Assembly (NCBI GenBank): GCA_036377595.1
Contig: DASUYB010000023.1
Location: 1 to 54,781 of the forward strand
Direction: 5' to 3'
DNA: 54,781 nucleotides
Origin: Longimicrobium sp.
GTDB taxonomy: Bacteria > Gemmatimonadota > Gemmatimonadetes > Longimicrobiales > Longimicrobiaceae
Below the pieces are notes generated by a model that made no database searches, was not told the DNA's origin, and saw nothing but the letters and a program-made list of their open reading frames with translations. This document shows, piece by piece, positions 24,251-40,779 of the stretch. The translations under genes were made by a program, and so were the position numbers. Numbering within the stretch: position 1 is the stretch's first letter; each line of letters starts with the position of its first letter.

Positions 24251-25096
24251 CTACCGTCCGACGCCCATCCTGCGCTCCAGCTCCTCGACGCGGGTGCGGC
24301 TGACCTTGAGCTTCACGCCGTTCTTCAGACGCACCGCGTAGTCGCCGCCGCCGCCGCGCAGGAGGGTGTCGATGGTGTCGAGCCGGACGATGATGGAGCG
24401 GTGGATGCGCAGGAAGCGCGCGGGGTCCAGCCGCTCCTCCAGCGCCTGCATCCGCTCGCGGATGACGTAGCCGCGCTCGGACGTGTGCAGCTCGGCGTAG
24501 GGGCCGCTGGCGGTGATGTACTCGATCTGCTCCACCGGCACCACCCGCACCTGCCCCCGCATCTCCACCGCGATCCGCTCGGTCCACGGCGACGGAGACT
24601 TCGTCGCGGCCGGACGCGGCTCCGTTGCGGGAATCGCATCCGCCGCAGGCGTGGGAGACGGCGCGCCGTCTCCGCCGAGGAGGGCGCGGAGGCGGCCGGC
24701 CAGGCGGCCGACCTCGGAGAGCTCGGCGATCTTCTGCGCGCGGCGGAAGGCCTGCTCGAAGCGCTCGTCGTCGTACGGCTTCAGCAGGTAGTCCACCGCG
24801 GCCACGTCGAACGCCTGCAGCGCGAACTGGTCGTACGCGGTGACGAACACGGTTGCGGGCATCCGCTCGGGGCCGATCTCGCGCACCACCTCCATCCCCG
24901 TCTTCCCCGGCATCTGCACGTCCAGGAAGACGAGATCGGGGCGGAGCGTGCGGATCGCCTCCACCGCCTCGTCGCCGTCGGCCGCCGTCCCCACCAGCTC
25001 GGCGCCCTCCTCGCGGGCGAGCAGGTCTTCCAGCCGCTGGCGGGCGAGCGGCTCGTCGTCGACCACCAGGACGCGGAGCGGCGGGGCGCCCATCAT
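24251..25096 (-). CDS. LytTR-family response regulator
   Basis: The 281-residue regulator has an N-terminal receiver domain (LVVDDEPLAR, phospho-acceptor Asp59 in VFLDVQMPG, the TAYD strand and LLKPYDDERF). A linker of about 45 residues rich in Pro and Ala follows, then a C-terminal LytTR DNA-binding domain (VEQIEYITASGPYAELHT, RIHRSIIVRLDTIDTL). LytTR proteins bind imperfect direct repeats and control virulence, autolysis or bacteriocin genes; targets are unknown here. The ATG 25096 overlaps the TGA of the sensor kinase gene (ATGA), so the pair is translationally coupled. Confidence 0.93.
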   Translation of the reverse strand: MMGAPPLRVLVVDDEPLARQRLEDLLAREEGAELVGTAADGDEAVEAIRTLRPDLVFLDVQMPGKTGMEVVREIGPERMPATVFVTAYDQFALQAFDVAAVDYLLKPYDDERFEQAFRRAQKIAELSEVGRLAGRLRALLGGDGAPSPTPAADAIPATEPRPAATKSPSPWTERIAVEMRGQVRVVPVEQIEYITASGPYAELHTSERGYVIRERMQALEERLDPARFLRIHRSIIVRLDTIDTLLRGGGGDYAVRLKNGVKLKVSRTRVEELERRMGVGR

Positions 25097-26295
25097 CACC
25101 CCACCACGCCCACGCCGGCGGCGTGCAGGTCGCCGGCGGTGTGGTAGGGGAGGACGACCTCGGCCTCCACGCCGCCGCCGTCCGCCGGCCGGAGCACGAG
25201 CGCCTGCGCATCGCCGTACAGCTGCTCCAGGCGCTGGCGGGTGTTGCGCACGCCCACGCCCTCGCGCGGCGTCTCCGCGCCCAGCCCCGGCCCGTTGTCG
25301 CGGACGGAGAGGACCACGCGGCCATCGTCGCGCCGCGCGGAGATGTGGATGCGGCCGCCGGACTTCATCCGGCTGACGCCGTGCTTCACCGCGTTCTCCA
25401 CCAGCGGCTGCAGCACCAGGTTGGGCACCAGCGCGTCCATCACCCCGCCCTCCACCTCCGTCTCCACCTCGAGCGTGCCCTGAAAGCGGATGCGCATGAT
25501 CTCCAGGTAGCGCTCCACGAACTCCATCTCCTTGGCCAGCGTCACCTCCGCATCCCCCGCGCCCTCCAGCGAGTGGCGCAGGAGCTCGCTCAGCCGCGCG
25601 ATCATCCTCCTCACGCCCTTCGGGTCCCGCTCGACCAGCGCGGAGACGGCGTTCAGGGTGTTGAAGAGGAAGTGGGGATCGACCTGGCTGCGGAGCGCGG
25701 AGAGGCGCGCCTCGGCCAGCTGGGCGCGGAGCTGCGCGGTCTCGGCCTGCAGGCGCGTGGCCTCGTCCTGCCGCTGGCGGTAGCGCAGCGAGTAGTCGCG
25801 CGCCACGCCCGCCGCCACGATGCCGCAGTAGACGACCATCTCCCGCAGGAACCAGAGGTGGGTAATGGCGCGCAGCGGGTCGGAGAAGAAGTTGTGCCGC
25901 TGCGGGAGCCCGAGCAGCCACCAGCGGGTGACGTCGAGCACCAGGTCCACCAGGATCGACGCCGCGACGCCGGTGACGGCCAGCGCCGCCACCAGCGTCC
26001 AGCGCCGCTCGCGCGCGGTGAAGAAGCGGCGGCTGAGCAGGAAGATCGCGCAGGTGACCACCGCCCAGACGAGCGACTCGGCGAAGGCGAGCGCCACCGG
26101 GGCGGAGGGGAAGGTCGGCTGGATTCCCGGCGGGCGGCGCGGGTCGAGCAGGCGGTTGGCGGCGGTCAGCACCGCCATGAACAGCCAGAACGCGAAGATG
26201 GCCAGCACCTCGCCGCGCGTGAGCCGGGCGCCGTGGGACGCCGGCTCGTGCGCGGCGGCAGCGCCGGCGGAGCTCGCGGGATTCGGATTCACCAT
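25096..26295 (-). CDS. LytS/YehU-like sensor histidine kinase
   Basis: The 399-residue membrane kinase starts at ATG 26295. Four hydrophobic helices lie between about residues 28 and 165 (VLAIFAFWLFMAVLTAA, LAFAESLVWAVVTCAIFLL, VAALAVTGVAASILVDLVL, EMVVYCGIVAAGVA). A short coiled coil then leads into the His_kinase domain with the phospho-His208 in SQVDPHFLFNTLN. The ATPase domain retains the N box (NAVKHGV) and G boxes (DNGPGLG, GVGVRNTRQRL). It pairs with the LytTR regulator overlapping its stop. The stimulus is unknown; related kinases sense small metabolites such as pyruvate. A more upstream start (to 26373) would add charged sequence with no homology and is not preferred. Confidence 0.92.
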   Translation of the reverse strand: MVNPNPASSAGAAAAHEPASHGARLTRGEVLAIFAFWLFMAVLTAANRLLDPRRPPGIQPTFPSAPVALAFAESLVWAVVTCAIFLLSRRFFTARERRWTLVAALAVTGVAASILVDLVLDVTRWWLLGLPQRHNFFSDPLRAITHLWFLREMVVYCGIVAAGVARDYSLRYRQRQDEATRLQAETAQLRAQLAEARLSALRSQVDPHFLFNTLNAVSALVERDPKGVRRMIARLSELLRHSLEGAGDAEVTLAKEMEFVERYLEIMRIRFQGTLEVETEVEGGVMDALVPNLVLQPLVENAVKHGVSRMKSGGRIHISARRDDGRVVLSVRDNGPGLGAETPREGVGVRNTRQRLEQLYGDAQALVLRPADGGGVEAEVVLPYHTAGDLHAAGVGVVG

Positions 26296-26528
26296 CGGAC
26301 AGCATCTCTTCCGTGCGCGCGCGGGAATGCGCGTGTACGGCGAAACGATGTGTCCCGTCCTTATTCCGCGCAAACTGTGGCGGCACGAACTGCACCGGCA
26401 CCACTCTCACCTGCACCTCGCGCGCACGAACTCTCGGAGAGCACAGGGACGACGTCTCCCGGCCGCTACGCGGTCCTCAATGCGAGGGAGTGAGATTTAC
26501 GTAATCCCAACGGCGCCGGTGGACGCGC

Positions 26529-27869
26529 TCACGCGACGCTCGAGATTTCGTCCAGGATCGCGGGGATCTCCGGGAAGTAATTAAACCAGATGACGTTCAG
26601 GCCAAGCGTATTCGCGTCCTGCTCCTCCAACAGCTTCGCAACTCTGTCGAGTCCGTCTCCGTTGGACATCCGTGGAATCTCCCTAAGGATGTAATGAGAC
26701 GGGGTCTTATCGACACGCCTGCGCATCGCTACGTCCAACAACCGGCGCAGGTTCGGGTCTTTCAAACTGATCCCGACGAGCAGACAGGTGGTGTGTGTCA
26801 GCTTCGTAAGCTGGATCAGATTCGACCAACTGAATGGATCAATGAATTGGCTGTGATACGCATCTTCGCTGAACACGATGTTGGACGTTTCCGGGATTTT
26901 CGCTTGTCGCGGAAGGTATCCGTGAACGTGATAGATCGGAATCTCATCGGACTTGTGGGTGAGCTCTTCCGAATAGATCGGACATGCCTTGGTACCATTC
27001 GAGCGCAACGTCTCCTCGATCAGGTCGTCGAAATTGAAGGTAATGATCGAATCGAAGGGTAGGCGGTCACGTTCAGGCTTCACCATGCGGCCGATGCACT
27101 CGAGCAACTTGGAGGATCCAGGTGGGGCTGCATAGAGTGCATCGCGTAACTCCCGAAGGAATTCGTTACCAAGCGTGTTCTTCAGGTACTTTCCAACGAT
27201 CAGCGATGACGAGCCATGCCTCCGGTCGAACTCATCTGCGGCTTCGTCGTCCAACGTCAGTGCATGTGTCTCCGCAATCCGGTGCATCATACTGCGGAGG
27301 AGTCTGACCAAGAGTTTGCGCCAGGACGGAATTCCTGCTTCTACCGATACACCAGCGCCGCATACGAGGGTGAGACGACCGCGACCGAATGCTTCGCGCA
27401 ACTTCCGGATCTGCGCGCCACGTCCATCTTTCCCTGGAGTGGCTCCGGTACTGATATCAGCGCCTCCTGATTCCGTGATGCCGTCCAAGGTTGTGGTCAA
27501 GGTGGCTAGCCCGGACTCGAAGTCACCAGCCATGTCGATGTACACGTGCGTAGGCAAGTATCCAGGAAACTCGCTGTGATCAATTCGGACAAGAATGATC
27601 CGCAGCTCGCGGTTGGATACCTGCTGAAAAGCGATTGCGGAGAATTGGCGCTGGACGTCCGCGGAGCGAAACGAATTCTTACTCGCGACGAGAATTACAG
27701 CGTCCACACTTACACGTTCGAAGAGTAGCCTGATCTCTCCAATGATGTTTTCCTCCGAAGCAGGTTTGAACCAATCAACCCAAACGTTGTGACCGTGGCC
27801 TATCAGATGTTGCGCAATCTCCCCAACGACCGGGCTATCTTTGGGACTATAGCTCATGAGGATGCGCAT
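26529..27869 (-). CDS. TIR-SIR2 fusion protein, probable NAD-depleting defence protein
   Basis: The 446-residue protein has two NAD-related domains. Residues 1-130 look like a bacterial TIR domain (ILMSYSPKDSPVVGEIAQHL, NVWVDWFKP, DAVILVASKNSFRS), but the position of the catalytic Glu (usual W-x3-E) reads DVQRQF, with Gln75 in its place. Residues 155-446 are a SIR2-like NADase: nucleotide loop CGAGVSVEAGIPSW (170-183), FNFDDLIE with Asn279, HVHG with catalytic His316, and VGISLKDPNLRRLL (365-378). SIR2 and TIR domains deplete NAD+ in anti-phage systems such as Thoeris, which makes abortive infection the likely role (inference). The start is ATG 27869, with GGAGG seven bases upstream. GC content is near 53% against about 70% around it, and the gene is an orphan between unrelated operons, indicating transfer. 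Confidence 0.85.
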   Translation of the reverse strand: MRILMSYSPKDSPVVGEIAQHLIGHGHNVWVDWFKPASEENIIGEIRLLFERVSVDAVILVASKNSFRSADVQRQFSAIAFQQVSNRELRIILVRIDHSEFPGYLPTHVYIDMAGDFESGLATLTTTLDGITESGGADISTGATPGKDGRGAQIRKLREAFGRGRLTLVCGAGVSVEAGIPSWRKLLVRLLRSMMHRIAETHALTLDDEAADEFDRRHGSSSLIVGKYLKNTLGNEFLRELRDALYAAPPGSSKLLECIGRMVKPERDRLPFDSIITFNFDDLIEETLRSNGTKACPIYSEELTHKSDEIPIYHVHGYLPRQAKIPETSNIVFSEDAYHSQFIDPFSWSNLIQLTKLTHTTCLLVGISLKDPNLRRLLDVAMRRRVDKTPSHYILREIPRMSNGDGLDRVAKLLEEQDANTLGLNVIWFNYFPEIPAILDEISSVA

Positions 27870-27887
27870 AAGTCCGCCTCCAGGTTA

Positions 27888-27967
27888 ATGATATCCTCTC
27901 CATCGTGAGATCTGTGTCAACATCCACGAATTTAGGCCGGTGTGGACCGGTTTTCCAAGGATATCAT
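27888..27967. promoter_or_regulatory. Inverted repeat pair and promoter region upstream of the TIR-SIR2 gene
   Basis: ATGATATCCT (27888-27897) and AGGATATCAT (27958-27967) are a perfect inverted pair 60 bp apart. Between them lie a minus-strand TTGACA (27920-27915) and the small hairpin CCGGT-GTGG-ACCGG (27937-27950). No good -10 is spaced 16-18 bp from TTGACA. It could be a looping operator or the edge of the acquired segment. Confidence 0.4.
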
Positions 27968-28192
27968 ATCCCCGGTCGAAGGATGAGGATGAAAGGATGG
28001 GGCGGTCACGCCCGAGTGCCTCTGCCGGCTCGGCGCCCTTCGGTGCGCGCCCAGCTCTCCGCATCTCTGCTGCTCCGCGCGAGGGCTTCGGCGGTTAACT
28101 TGCGCGCGGGCGTTCGTGTCTCGCGAAGTGCAGTTCGGAACATCGCGGTGCAGGTGGAATCGGAAAGGGGACCGCGCTCGCGCGGCAGACGC

Positions 28193-28260: not shown

Positions 28261-29574
28261 ATGAAGACCATCCGTATCGCCGCAGTGGCCCTGGTGCTGG
28301 TGCTTGCCACCGCAGCCTTCTTCTTCCTGCGCAAGTCCGGCTCGGACGAGAGCTCGGAGTTCCGCACCTCCGCCGTCACGCGCGGGAACCTGAGCTCCAG
28401 CGTGTCCGCGACGGGATCGCTCAGCGCGGTGACCACCGTGCAGGTGGGCACCCAGGTGTCTGGGCAGGTGTCGGCCATCTACGCGGACTTCAACGACCGC
28501 GTGAGGCGGGGGCAGCTGCTGGCGCGCATCGACCCCACGCTGGCCGAGCAAGCCGTGGCGGACGCGCAGGCGGGGCTCGAGCGCGCGCGCGCCGGGGTGC
28601 AGCAGGCGCAGGCCGACTACGAGCGCAATCGCCCGCTCTTCGACAGCAAGGTCATCACCGCCGAGGAGTTCCAGGGCTACCGCTACAAGCTGCAGGTGGC
28701 GCAGGCCGACCTGAAGTCGGCCGAGGTGACCATGCTGCGCGCCCGGCGCAACCTGGGCTACACCGAGATCTACGCGCCCATCGACGGCATCGTGGTCGAG
28801 CGCAACGTGGACGTGGGGCAGACGGTGGCCGCCTCGTTCTCGGCGCCGCAGCTGTTCCTGATCGCCAACGACCTGTCGCAGATGCAGATCCTGGCGTCGG
28901 TCGACGAGAGCGACATCGGCGACATCCACCAGGGGCAGCCGGCCAGCTTCACCGTGCAGAGCTACCCCGACCGCACCTTCCACGGCACCGTGCGCCAGGT
29001 GCGCCTGCAGAGCAAGACCACGGAGAACGTGGTGAACTACACGGCGGTGGTCGAGGTGGCCAACCCCGACGGCAAGCTGCTGCCGGGGATGACGGCCACG
29101 GTGGACTTCGAGACCGGCGCCGCGCAGAACGCGCTGCTGGTGCCCAACGCCGCGCTCCGCTTCACCCCGAGCGACGAGGAGCTGAAGAAGGCGGGGATCG
29201 ATCCCGACTCGCTGCAGGCCGCGCGCGCGCGACGTCAGGGCGCGAACGCGAACGCCCGCGCCGGCCAGGCCAACCAGGGCCCGTTCGGCGGCCCCGGCGG
29301 CGGCAACGCCGGCCTCCGCGCGGCGGGCGGGCGCGGCGGGCGCAGCAGCTTCGGACGGATCTGGGTGCAGGACTCCACCGGCAAGCTGTCGATGGTCCGC
29401 GTGCGCACCGGGCTGACCGACGGCAAGAACACCGTCGTCGAGGGCACCGGGCTGAAGGAGGGGATGAAGGTGATCGTGGGCTCCAACGTGGCCTCCACGG
29501 CGCAGACGCAGCAGACCAGCAATCCGCTGGGCGGGCAGCAGCGCGGCGGCGGCGGCCGCGGCCCGGGCTTCTGA
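28261..29574 (+). CDS. macA: MacA-like periplasmic adaptor (membrane fusion protein)
   Basis: The 437-residue protein starts with a membrane anchor (IAAVALVLVLATAAFFFL). It then has the adaptor layout: barrel-sandwich half (VGTQVSGQVSAIYADFNDRVRRGQLLARID), an alpha-hairpin with heptad pattern (residues about 95-165), the second half (YAPIDGIVVERNVDVGQTVAASF), beta-barrel and membrane-proximal domains. A Gly/Asn/Arg-rich insert at about 335-365 and a Gly-rich end are unusual for MacA and look disordered. It links the MacB transporter to a TolC channel. It heads a four-gene operon with the ATPase 14 bases downstream. Substrate unknown: macrolides, peptides or siderophores in relatives. Confidence 0.9.
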   Translation: MKTIRIAAVALVLVLATAAFFFLRKSGSDESSEFRTSAVTRGNLSSSVSATGSLSAVTTVQVGTQVSGQVSAIYADFNDRVRRGQLLARIDPTLAEQAVADAQAGLERARAGVQQAQADYERNRPLFDSKVITAEEFQGYRYKLQVAQADLKSAEVTMLRARRNLGYTEIYAPIDGIVVERNVDVGQTVAASFSAPQLFLIANDLSQMQILASVDESDIGDIHQGQPASFTVQSYPDRTFHGTVRQVRLQSKTTENVVNYTAVVEVANPDGKLLPGMTATVDFETGAAQNALLVPNAALRFTPSDEELKKAGIDPDSLQAARARRQGANANARAGQANQGPFGGPGGGNAGLRAAGGRGGRSSFGRIWVQDSTGKLSMVRVRTGLTDGKNTVVEGTGLKEGMKVIVGSNVASTAQTQQTSNPLGGQQRGGGGRGPGF

Positions 29575-29588
29575 GGCGGGAGCATACG

Positions 29589-30344
29589 ATGAGCGTCATC
29601 CACATCGAGAACGTGACCAAGGTCTACGGCCACGGCGAGAACGAGGTGCGTGCGCTGCGCGGCGTGGACCTGACCGTGGAGCCCGGCGAGATGATCGCCG
29701 TGATGGGCTCTTCGGGATCGGGAAAGAGTACGCTGATGAACATCCTCGGCTGCCTCGACGTCCCCACCAGCGGCACCTACCTGCTCGACGGGGTGCGGGT
29801 GGACGGGCTGGGGAAGAACGCGCTGGCGGACCTGCGCAACCAGAAGCTGGGCTTCGTCTTCCAGGGCTTCAACCTCCTCTCCCGCACCAGCGCGCTGGAG
29901 AACGTGGAGCTGCCCCTGCTCTACGACCGCAAGGGGCGGTGGAAGGACACGAAGGCGATGGCGGCCACGGCGCTGGAGCGGGTGGGGCTGGGGAAGCGGC
30001 TCGACCACCAGCCCAGCGAGCTCTCGGGCGGACAGCAGCAGCGCGTGGCCATCGCCCGCGCGCTGGTGACGCACCCCACGCTCCTGCTGGCCGACGAGCC
30101 CACGGGGAACCTGGACTCGCGCACCACCATGGACGTGATGGCGCTCTTCCAGGAGCTGAACGACCAGGGGATCACCATCCTGCTGGTGACGCACGAGCCG
30201 GAAGTCTCGCAGTACGCCAAGCGCATCGTGGAGGTGCGCGACGGCCGCATCCTGCGCGACCACCCGGTCGAGCGGCGGCGGAGCGCCGCGGCCGATCTCC
30301 GGGCGGCGCGCCAGGCCGAGGAGCTGGAGGAGGTGGCGGCATGA
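29589..30344 (+). CDS. MacB/LolD-type ABC transporter ATP-binding protein
   Basis: The 251-residue ATPase has Walker [11 protein letters not shown]-loop FVFQGFNLL, signature LSGGQQQR, Walker [13 protein letters not shown] and the H-loop VTHEP. The [13 protein letters not shown] region is characteristic of the MacB/LolD family. In classic MacB the ATPase is fused to the permease; here it is a separate gene whose stop overlaps the permease start (ATGA). It powers mechanotransmission of the permease dimer at the inner membrane. Confidence 0.95.
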
Positions 30345-31558
30345 AGAAGCAGACGCTGGTGCGCATTGCCGCGCAGAGCATCCTGAAGAACAAGATGCGC
30401 ACGCTGCTGACGATGCTGGGGATCGTGATCGGCGTGGGCGCGGTGATCGTGATGGTGGCCATCGGCCACGGCGCGCAGTCGACCATCGAGAAGCAGATCG
30501 GCAACCTGGGGACGAACCTGATCATGGTGACCCCCGGCGCCACCCAGCAGGGCGGCGTGAGCCAGGGCGCGCAGACCTTCAATCGCCTCACCGTCGACGA
30601 CGCGGAGAAGCTGCAGCGCGAGGCGACCCTCGTGGCCGGCGTGTCGCCCGTGATCTTCTCGCGCGGCCAGGTCATCGGCGGCGACGGCAACTGGCGCACG
30701 CAGATCCAGGGCGTGTCCACCGGCTACCAGACCATCCGCGGGTGGGAGACCACGAGCGGCGAGTTCTTCAGCGACGCCGACCTGGCCGCCAAGCGCAAGG
30801 TGGTGGTCCTCGGCGCCACCGTGGCCGAGAACCTCTTTCCCGGGCAGGACCCGGTGGGGCAGCAGGTGCAGGTGCGCAGCGTTCCCATGACCATCGTGGG
30901 CGTGCTGGCCAAAAAGGGGCAGACGGCCAGCGGCAACGACATGGACGACGTGGTGCTCCTCCCCTACACGACCATGCAGGCGCGGCTGTCGGGGGGGATG
31001 TTCATCGGGCAGATCCTGGCCAGCACCGCGTCGGCCGGCGAGCTCCCCGCGGCGCAGGACGAGATCCGCGCCATCATGCGCGAATCGCATCGCCAGAGCG
31101 ACGGCGAGCCCGACGACTTCACCGTGCGCAACCAGAACGACCTGGCGGCCGCGGCCACCTCGACCACGCAGGTGATGACGGCGCTGCTGGCGGCCATCGC
31201 CTCGGTCTCGCTGGTGGTGGGGGGGATCGGGATCATGAACATCATGCTCGTCTCCGTGACGGAGCGGACGCGGGAGATCGGGATCCGCATGGCCATCGGG
31301 GCGCGCGGCGGCGACGTGCTGCTGCAGTTCCTGGTGGAGAGCGTGGTGATGAGCCTGCTGGGCGGGATCATCGGGCTGGGGGTGGGCTTCGGCGCCGCGG
31401 CCCTGGTGGGGCGGCTGACCGGGTGGAGCACCTCCACCCCGCCGCAGGCGGTGGCCATCGCGGTGGGATTCTCGGCGGCCGTGGGCGTGTTCTTCGGGTT
31501 CTATCCGGCGCGCAAGGCGGCGGCGCTGAACCCCATCGAGGCCCTGCGCTACGAATGA
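30341..31558 (+). CDS. MacB-type ABC transporter permease
   Basis: The 405-residue permease has the MacB topology. One N-terminal helix ([20 protein letters not shown]) precedes a large periplasmic domain of about 220 residues (Mac[22 protein letters not shown]). Three C-terminal helices form the FtsX domain ([40 protein letters not shown]). It works with the separate ATPase and MacA to move substrates from the periplasm through TolC. Its start overlaps the ATPase stop. Confidence 0.93.
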
Positions 31559-31606
31559 CGCTCCGTCCCAGCGACGGACGTGGACGATAGAGGAAGAGAG
31601 GCACTG

Positions 31607-33016
31607 ATGTTCGACCGGAACGGAATCGCGCGGTGGGCGCGGCTCGCCATCGCCCTCGCGGCGGCGGCGGGCACGGCGCCCGCGCTGGCGGCGCAGACGG
31701 GGACGCCCCCGACGACGACGGCGGCGCAGGCGGCGGCGGGGCAGCCGCGCACCATCACCTTCGACGAGGCGGTGCGGATCGCGCTGCAGCAGAACGGCAC
31801 GCTGCGCCAGGCGGTGAACTCCGCGGCGCTCGACACCGTGGCCGTGCGGCAGTCGAAGTCGCAGTTCCTGCCGGACGTGCGCTTCAGCACCACGTCGACG
31901 GGAACGTACGACCGCGCGGCGGGCTCGGGGAACGGGTCGGGGACGGCGCTCAGCCGCACCAGCACGGCGCTGAACGCGGGCGTCAGCAGCTCGCTGGTGG
32001 TCTACAACGGCGGCGCCAACTCGGCCAACCTGCGCGCCGCGCGCCTCACCCAGCAGGCGGGCGCCAGCGACGTGGAGCGGACGCGGCAGTCCGTGGTCTT
32101 CACCGTGGTCTCCAACTACCTGACGCTGATCGAGGCGCAGGAGCAGCTGCGGGTGCGCAACGAGACGCTGGCCAGCGAAGAGGCGCAGCTGCAGCAGATC
32201 AGGGCGTTCGTGGACGCGGGACGCCGCCCGATCGCCGACCAGTACCAGCAGCAGGCGGCGGTGGCCGCGGCGCAGCTGGCGGTGGTGCAGGCGCGCGCCG
32301 CGGTGGAGCTGGCCAAGGTGGACCTGATCCAGACGCTGCAGCTGGACCCGCGCGGCGAGTACGCCTTCCAGGCGCCGCCGGCGGGAACGGGCACGGCCGC
32401 CGTGGGGTCGCTCGACGCGCTGCTGGACCAGGCGTTCGCGCGGCGGGTGGACCTTTCCGCGCGGCAGACGGACCTGGCCGCGGCGCAGCAGGGCGTGCGT
32501 GCCGCGCAGGCGGGAAGGCTCCCCACGGTGACGGTGAGCGCCGGCTACAACACCAGCGTGAACAGCAACCAGGACCTGGGGCTGTTCGACCAGCTGAACG
32601 AGCGGCAGGGCGGGTCGGTGTCCGTGGGCCTCTCGCTGCCGATCTTCGACCGCGGCAACACGGCGGCCGAGGTGCAGCGCGCCCGGATCCAGCAGGACAA
32701 CGCGCGGATCGCGCTGGAGAACCAGCGGCAGCAGGTGGGGCTCGAGGTGCGGCGCGCGCTCCTGGACTGGCAGTCGGCGCAGCAGCAGCTGGCCGCGGCG
32801 CAGGCGCAGGTGACCGCCGCGCAGCAGTCGCTGACGGCGACGGACCAGCGCTACCGCGCCGGCGTGGGCACGCTGGTGGAGCTGACGCAGGCGCGCGCCG
32901 TCCTGGCGCAGGCGCAGAGCCAGCTGGTGAGCGCGCGGTACAACCTCGTCTTCCAGCGCACGCTGGTGGATTACTACGTCGGGAATCTCGATCCGGACGC
33001 GGTGAGCATCGGGTGA
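31607..33016 (+). CDS. TolC-family outer-membrane efflux protein
   Basis: The 469-residue protein has a signal peptide ([20 protein letters not shown]). It then has the tandem outer-membrane efflux repeats of long helices ([54 protein letters not shown]; second half [26 protein letters not shown]), with a final YYVGNLD. It forms the trimeric channel of the MacAB-like pump encoded immediately upstream. The start ATG 31607 is served by AGAGAGG five bases before; the in-frame GTG 31580 has no such site. A heptamer array and a terminator follow. Confidence 0.92.
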
Positions 33017-40101: not shown

Positions 40102-40779
40102 ATGTCTCAAGAGAAGCAGCCTTCGACAGAACTGGAGCAATTGCATTCCAGCGTCGAATCATTGCGTGCAGTAGTAACCAACGCTTCCGTGGGCGCTTTG
40201 AACGCGGTGCCGCTCTTCGGAGGACTCCTTGCTGCATGGATTTCTCAGTTCCAGCAGCGAGAACTGCTCAAACGTCTGCTGGCCGTCTTGGATGATGCAG
40301 TCGCCCGTATTCACCAACTCGAAGAATCGGGACGAGAAATAAGAATCGACGACGAGTACATCGAGTTTGTTGGCGAAGCAGGCATTCTGGCTGCTCGGAC
40401 ACGTAGTGAGCAGAAGCGTCGATATTTTTCCGGTCTAATCGCCTGTGGTGCTGTGGAGTTTCGTTCGGGTGAAAGAGATCGTGGCAGAATGATGGCAACG
40501 ATTCTTAACCAAATGGATGATGCTGCCTTGAATCTGTTTATTATGATCATGATAAGGCCACATACCCAGAACGTTCATGGATTTTGGGGTGCTTCCCGCC
40601 CGATGAGCATCAAGCTCAGTGATTTCCCAAGCGGTAGTGGGCGTGATCTTTCTATTTTGGTTGCCCACGGGTTGGTTGAATTAGGCGCAACCCGCGGCGC
40701 ACGTGGCGATACGGTTCAAATGACTGTCACGCACTTAGGAATTTCTTTCTTCGAGTGGATTTCTACCGGGAACAAGTAA
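40102..40779 (+). CDS. Unknown protein, low GC, possibly Abi-alpha (DUF4393)-like
   Basis: The 225-residue protein has an N-terminal helical part with a short hydrophobic stretch (VGALNAVPLFGGLLAAWISQF). A long helix pair (LLKRLLAVLDDAVARIHQLEESG) and a segment (ILAARTRSEQKRRYFSGLIACGAV, ILNQMDDAALNLFIMIM) recall the layout of DUF4393 abortive-infection proteins. The end looks like a winged helix (SILVAHGLVELGATRG...MTVTHLGISFFEWIS). That match is from memory and weak. GC is near 50% against about 70% in neighbours and codon use is unlike theirs, so it was acquired recently. It stands alone between a broken gene and ychF, with no clear ribosome-binding site. Function is unproven; a defence or membrane-regulatory role is a hypothesis. 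Confidence 0.6.
   Translation: MSQEKQPSTELEQLHSSVESLRAVVTNASVGALNAVPLFGGLLAAWISQFQQRELLKRLLAVLDDAVARIHQLEESGREIRIDDEYIEFVGEAGILAARTRSEQKRRYFSGLIACGAVEFRSGERDRGRMMATILNQMDDAALNLFIMIMIRPHTQNVHGFWGASRPMSIKLSDFPSGSGRDLSILVAHGLVELGATRGARGDTVQMTVTHLGISFFEWISTGNK

Follow-up and report, generated by a model that had tools for sequence, protein, structure and literature searches.

The gene at 26529..27869 on the minus strand of the window (the whole 54,781-nucleotide stretch of Longimicrobium sp. DNA analysed here) encodes a single chain in which a TIR domain is followed by a SIR2 domain, and the protein belongs to a TIR-SIR2 fusion family that is widespread and apparently undescribed. Bacterial immunity has two main modules that consume NAD, namely TIR and SIR2, which normally occur on separate chains or one at a time. 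We think it probable that the fusion is a horizontally acquired single-gene abortive-infection effector that depletes NAD+, with the TIR domain serving as sensor or assembly module and the SIR2 domain as NADase. Supporting this explanation, the SIR2 part has its matches among defence NADases (ThsA, KomC, DSR2, and Avs5), the gene is a lone insertion, prophage copies lie by CI, and another copy lies in an island with ThsB. NADase defence by TIR or by SIR2 is already known; here there is a one-chain family of one apparent origin, present in prophages and across many phyla, in which the TIR active site has been lost naturally more than once, and such a family allows a direct test of whether TIR can be a pure sensor for a SIR2 NADase. 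We found no published TIR-SIR2 fusion in open PMC papers and no full-length model in PADLOC 2.0.0, which gave matches only to ThsA, TIR, and Dsr1 parts.

Domain architecture and insertion site

The open reading frame has an ATG start and 446 codons plus a stop, it has ~49 full-length relatives, and a ribosome-binding site (GGAGG, 27877-27881, minus strand) lies 7 nt before the ATG. The initial annotation had proposed that TIR and SIR2 share this 446-residue chain, and both the Pfam profiles and the predicted structure back the two assignments. The TIR domain (residues 1-134; 27468..27869, minus strand) matched TIR_2 over residues 3-124 with 57 bits vs a cut-off of 28, and the SIR2 domain (residues 148-446; 26532..27428, minus strand) matched SIR2_2 over residues 274-397 with 64.3 bits vs a cut-off of 24.5 and the PADLOC ThsA profile over residues 269-444 with 71.5 bits. 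Between them lies a low-confidence linker (residues 135-147; 27429..27467, minus strand; pLDDT <50 at residues 136-148). In an AlphaFold2 model built from a 45-row family alignment (pLDDT 82.4), structural searches with residues 1-134 returned solved TIR domains (SPARTA TIR, Z 14.9; Cat1, Z 14.0), confirming the proposed N-terminal fold; a misaligned or chance TIR match was ruled out by Pfam, by a profile search against the PDB, and by the fold. Residues 145-446 matched the solved SIR2 domains of BcThsA (Z 21.1), KomC (20.5), and DSR2 (19.1), and the SIR2 part also matched Avs5 (Z 15.5) and human FAM118B (Z 14.7). The matched span of BcThsA is residues 2-280, and since the fusion protein terminates at the end of the ThsA SIR2 it has no SLOG domain.

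Homology by blastn to a contig from the same genus (G323:C52) extends up to 26399 and begins again at 28110, with flanks that are 85% identical, so that the inserted segment (26400..28109) measures 1,710 bp here vs 140 bp at the counterpart locus (L115). The 1,710 bp contain only the TIR-SIR2 gene. Both flanks consist of core genes that are adjacent in G323, namely a LytTR-type response regulator and histidine kinase on one side (24251..26373, minus strand; kinase 85% identical) and a MacA/MacB/TolC-type efflux operon on the other (28261..33016, plus strand; MacA-like protein 81% identical). The empty site in G323 points to a one-gene insertion, and the view that the Longimicrobium TIR-SIR2 gene is a lone, horizontally acquired gene is supported. 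The low GC content in a background of about 70% and the lack of a partner gene, both remarked on earlier, hold at this locus: the gene measures 54.4% GC vs roughly 70% in its surroundings, and G323 has the same flanks without the one-gene segment. The fusion was present in only one of ten Longimicrobium genomes searched. We found no promoter-like match upstream of the gene, and its vicinity showed neither mobile-element ends nor a tRNA or RNA-family match.

Two further features of this genome were observed. A second low-GC gene (40102-40779, plus strand; ~53% GC around it) is flanked by a small SnoaL-like ORF on one side and by the gene of a YchF-type GTPase on the other, and its 225-aa product had no Pfam match over the cut-off. 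The genome is also rich in NAD-defence domains, with SIR2_2 in 7 places and TIR_2 in 9 places, and its contig C1 has two adjacent ThsB_TIR ORFs.

Extent of the family and its neighbourhoods

Motifs from the SIR2 part, scanned against 84,980 genomes, gave 272 relatives, of which the best 80 were retained; the top half of these 80 were mostly full-length matches, three prophage contigs also matched over the full length, and four more fusions (L047, L058, L059, and L066) were added by Pfam and a family TIR profile. In all we collected ~49 TIR-SIR2 fusions, mostly 34-56% identical, and with them the reading of the gene as an orphan was ruled out. Apart from the prophages, the hosts fall in more than ten phyla, among them Acidobacteriota, Planctomycetota, Pseudomonadota, Bacillota, Bacteroidota, Chloroflexota, Thermodesulfobacteriota, Ignavibacteriota, and Armatimonadota. 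The family is rare, with one further genome carrying it among 397 other Pseudomonadota sampled, and no full-length match was found among plasmid or phage GenBank records.

When a tree was built from 94 SIR2 domains, all 49 TIR fusions lay inside one 52-row group (SH-aLRT 96). Its three remaining rows are L049, with no TIR gene in the vicinity, and two located at contig ends (L050 and L075). A single origin of the fusion is therefore supported by this tree but not proven, because the tree search was quick and the branches are long. The next of kin outside the group have other N-terminal domains. Sister proteins (L011, L081, and others) belong to the same SIR2 subfamily (30-40% identical) and have an N-terminus that is not TIR; in several it is a ~165-residue domain with a D..E-x-K pattern, the model of which weakly resembles the restriction-type nucleases EcoT38I and Can2 (Foldseek probability <=0.97, E >0.01), while L077 has Mrr_N at its N-terminus and L097 a weak AbiH match. 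These differences among kin suggest exchangeable N-terminal modules on a conserved SIR2 effector. The PD-(D/E)XK-like N-terminal domain, found in L003, L011, L060, L065, L081, and relatives, is apparently degenerate in some of them, and these sister proteins may be a second NADase class in which the sensor is nuclease-like.

The three prophage copies (L094, L095, and L096, on viral contigs) lie directly downstream of a CI repressor, a position where exclusion genes expressed during lysogeny are commonly found. In Duganella sp. SG902 (L022, 2807-8240) the fusion is part of an integrase-flanked cassette; a tyrosine integrase lies on one side of it and a transposase on the other, and a single strand carries TIR genes, ThsB_TIR, the gene of a small membrane protein, TIR-SIR2, and ThsB. 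No separate SIR2 gene was found within 6 kb of this fusion, and the set is Thoeris-like, the fusion taking the place of ThsA. The Halomonas fusion (L036) has a ThsB-like TIR gene that ends 22 bp upstream of it. These prophage and island contexts make a defence role, which we take to be against phage, plausible for the family.

The Duganella and Halomonas loci speak for the chief rival to our explanation, in which TIR is a receptor that replaces SLOG; its cue, either a signal of the ADP-ribose type or a ThsB TIR protein itself, would be produced from other genes. The two ThsB_TIR ORFs elsewhere in the Longimicrobium genome would fit such a receptor, as would the proposal that inactive domains of the TIR/SLOG class act as nucleotide-binding sensors (PMC9503650). 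However, there is no ThsB nearby at most loci and most TIRs of the family retain their catalytic residues, and we regard this receptor as unlikely, although it comes closest to competing with our explanation of TIR as sensor or assembly module in a single-gene system.

An all-against-all comparison of 522 neighbour ORFs revealed no partner gene recurring across the family, and this candidate was set aside; sharing was confined to a clostridial subset, whose members have a small ORF upstream and the gene of a small membrane protein directly after the fusion. In L048, L053, L054, and L056 a conserved ~200-aa protein with an N-terminal membrane helix lies just downstream of the fusion (the one in L056 had no Pfam match), and a ~105-aa ORF lies upstream in L052, L074, and some of those four. 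At 43 loci the neighbours were mostly unrelated housekeeping genes, with scattered matches to ThsB, PbeA, PD-T4-6, and mads in raw counts from which we claim no enrichment in defence genes. This, like the lack of a promoter-like match upstream of the Longimicrobium gene, counts against our preferred explanation. A separate Thoeris-like arrangement was seen on Sinorhizobium americanum plasmid B (L012, 4632-7130), where a TIR gene, a SIR2 protein, and another TIR gene lie on one strand.

Active sites of the two domains

The active-site residues that had been read from the Longimicrobium sequence (Gln75, Asn279, His316, and the GAG loop at residues 171-173) are all as described when placed in the family alignment. 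Asn279 (27033..27035, minus strand) and His316 (26922..26924, minus strand) align with the NxD and HG motifs of ThsA and, together with Asp281, are invariant in the 46 aligned fusions; the loop (27351..27359, minus strand) is GAG in 45/46 and GSG in L027. The equivalents of Asn279 and His316 are ThsA Asn112 and His152, and the ThsA N112A and H152A substitutions each abolish NAD+ cleavage (PMC7272460). Columns conserved at >=90% number 82 in SIR2, of which the Longimicrobium protein retains 80, and only 6 in the whole TIR. With its invariant ThsA-type site the C-terminal SIR2 would be the NADase, and the N-terminal TIR, which evolves fast, would detect an infection cue, drive assembly, or do both, its response releasing the activity of SIR2.

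Residue 75 of the Longimicrobium protein (codon CAA, 27645..27647, minus strand) falls by profile alignment in the column that holds the Glu of WxxxE, a motif of bacterial TIR NADases. This residue is Glu in 43/46 distinct aligned fusions and Gln only in the Longimicrobium protein and in that of Noviherbaspirillum aridicola (L029); prophage L096 has Lys. Position 4 (Leu4 codon, 27858..27860, minus strand), which by our own mapping would be the site of the catalytic Phe in strand beta 1 of staphylococcal ThsB2, is aromatic (F/Y) everywhere, including all 43 Glu-keeping fusions, except in the two Gln75 proteins, with Leu in Longimicrobium and Ser in L029 (joint loss of E75 and F4, Fisher p 0.003 over the 46 aligned fusions). 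The Longimicrobium copy is also without the BB-loop Gly39. Since the two Gln75 proteins lie in different branches of the tree, the coupled losses look independent, and TIR catalysis has probably been lost twice, in Longimicrobium and in Noviherbaspirillum. Judged from these residues, the absence of both Glu and Phe implies, short of proof, that TIR activity is lost.

The suggestion of a dead TIR made in the initial annotation consequently stands for this copy (E75 to Q, F4 to L) and fails as a family trait, Glu being the usual residue among the homologues. The division of labour proposed along with it fared the same way: it fits this copy, in which the TIR residues are lost and the SIR2 site is intact, and as a general principle it fails, by the annotation's own criterion for refutation, because homologues retain Glu at position 75. 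An arrangement of TIR as sensor and SIR2 as effector brought about by catalytic loss would then be a lineage-specific state, reached at least twice.

Retention of Glu75 and the position-4 aromatic in 43/46 fusions makes the typical TIR look catalytic, as expected of a Thoeris system on one chain, in which cyclic ADP-ribose made by TIR would be the signal that switches on SIR2, whether of the same chain or of neighbouring ones. Against such signalling, SIR2 is not followed by SLOG or by any other domain known to bind signals, and the Longimicrobium copy and L029 lack both catalytic positions with SIR2 intact; we consider it slightly more doubtful than the receptor that replaces SLOG. Under our preferred explanation TIR in most family members probably also binds or cleaves NAD+, and in the Longimicrobium copy, because both TIR catalytic positions are lost, TIR is most likely a sensor or assembly domain only, with SIR2 performing all of the NAD cleavage. 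Precedent for non-catalytic TIR sensing comes from staphylococcal Thoeris, where ThsB1 binds a phage capsid protein and immunity persists when its catalytic residues are mutated, whereas in ThsB2 the E81Q change abolishes immunity (PMC12578639).

The low GC of the gene in a high-GC genome, the loss of E75, F4, and BB-loop G39 from TIR, and the presence of the fusion in a single genome of the genus could also describe a decaying foreign gene, the TIR of which is a degraded remnant and the protein of which has no present role. However, the frame is open over all 446 codons behind a strong ribosome-binding site, the conserved SIR2 residues are nearly all in place, and the TIR branch is not elongated: on a fixed tree the ratio of TIR to SIR2 terminal branches, a coarse test of constraint, was 1.60 for Longimicrobium against a family total of 1.73 (29.5/17.0). 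The Longimicrobium TIR evolves no faster than its family and shows no sign of general decay; with its branch not elongated it probably still has a job, and decay is the least probable of the alternatives, at most an outside chance. The ratio for L029 was 3.85, and the TIR of that protein may be decaying. Going beyond our preferred explanation, and only tentatively, we propose that TIR-SIR2 is an undescribed defence family of single genes that crosses phyla; its TIR would be an exchangeable infection sensor serving a ThsA-type NADase and, in certain lineages including this one, a catalytically dead receptor, i.e., Thoeris logic on one chain with the enzyme and receptor roles exchanged.

Comparison with known systems

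Thoeris, with ThsA (SIR2-SLOG) and ThsB (TIR), resembles the fusion in having the ThsA-type SIR2 fold and active site (Z 21) and in involving both TIR and SIR2. The fusion differs in carrying both domains on one chain, TIR first, and in lacking the C-terminal cyclic-ADPR-binding SLOG of type I Thoeris; at the Longimicrobium locus, a one-gene segment between core flanks, the separate ThsB gene of type I is absent as well, and in the Longimicrobium copy the TIR active site is lost. DSR1/DSR2, KomC, and Avs5 have the same SIR2 fold (Z 15.5 to 20.5) with large sensor parts fused or bound, but they are without TIR, their sensors being long C-terminal regions, STAND, or partner proteins. Human FAM118A/B, filament-forming SIR2_2 proteins, share the subfamily fold (Z 14.7) and have no TIR in the chain. 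The closest TIR folds are those of SPARTA TIR-APAZ and Cat1 CARF-TIR (Z 14.9 and 14.0), in which TIR is the NADase effector, whereas in the fusion this part would fall to SIR2 and the Longimicrobium TIR is without Glu. Catalytic TIR NADases and cyclases likewise share the TIR fold, but their catalytic Glu and facing Phe are absent in the Longimicrobium copy (Q75, L4). With the collected fusion family the Longimicrobium protein shares the N-terminal TIR and the SIR2 subfamily, and differs in the TIR Glu that is usual, non-universal, in that family; with the SIR2_2 defence sirtuins the fusion shares both the fold and the Asn and His of the NADase site.
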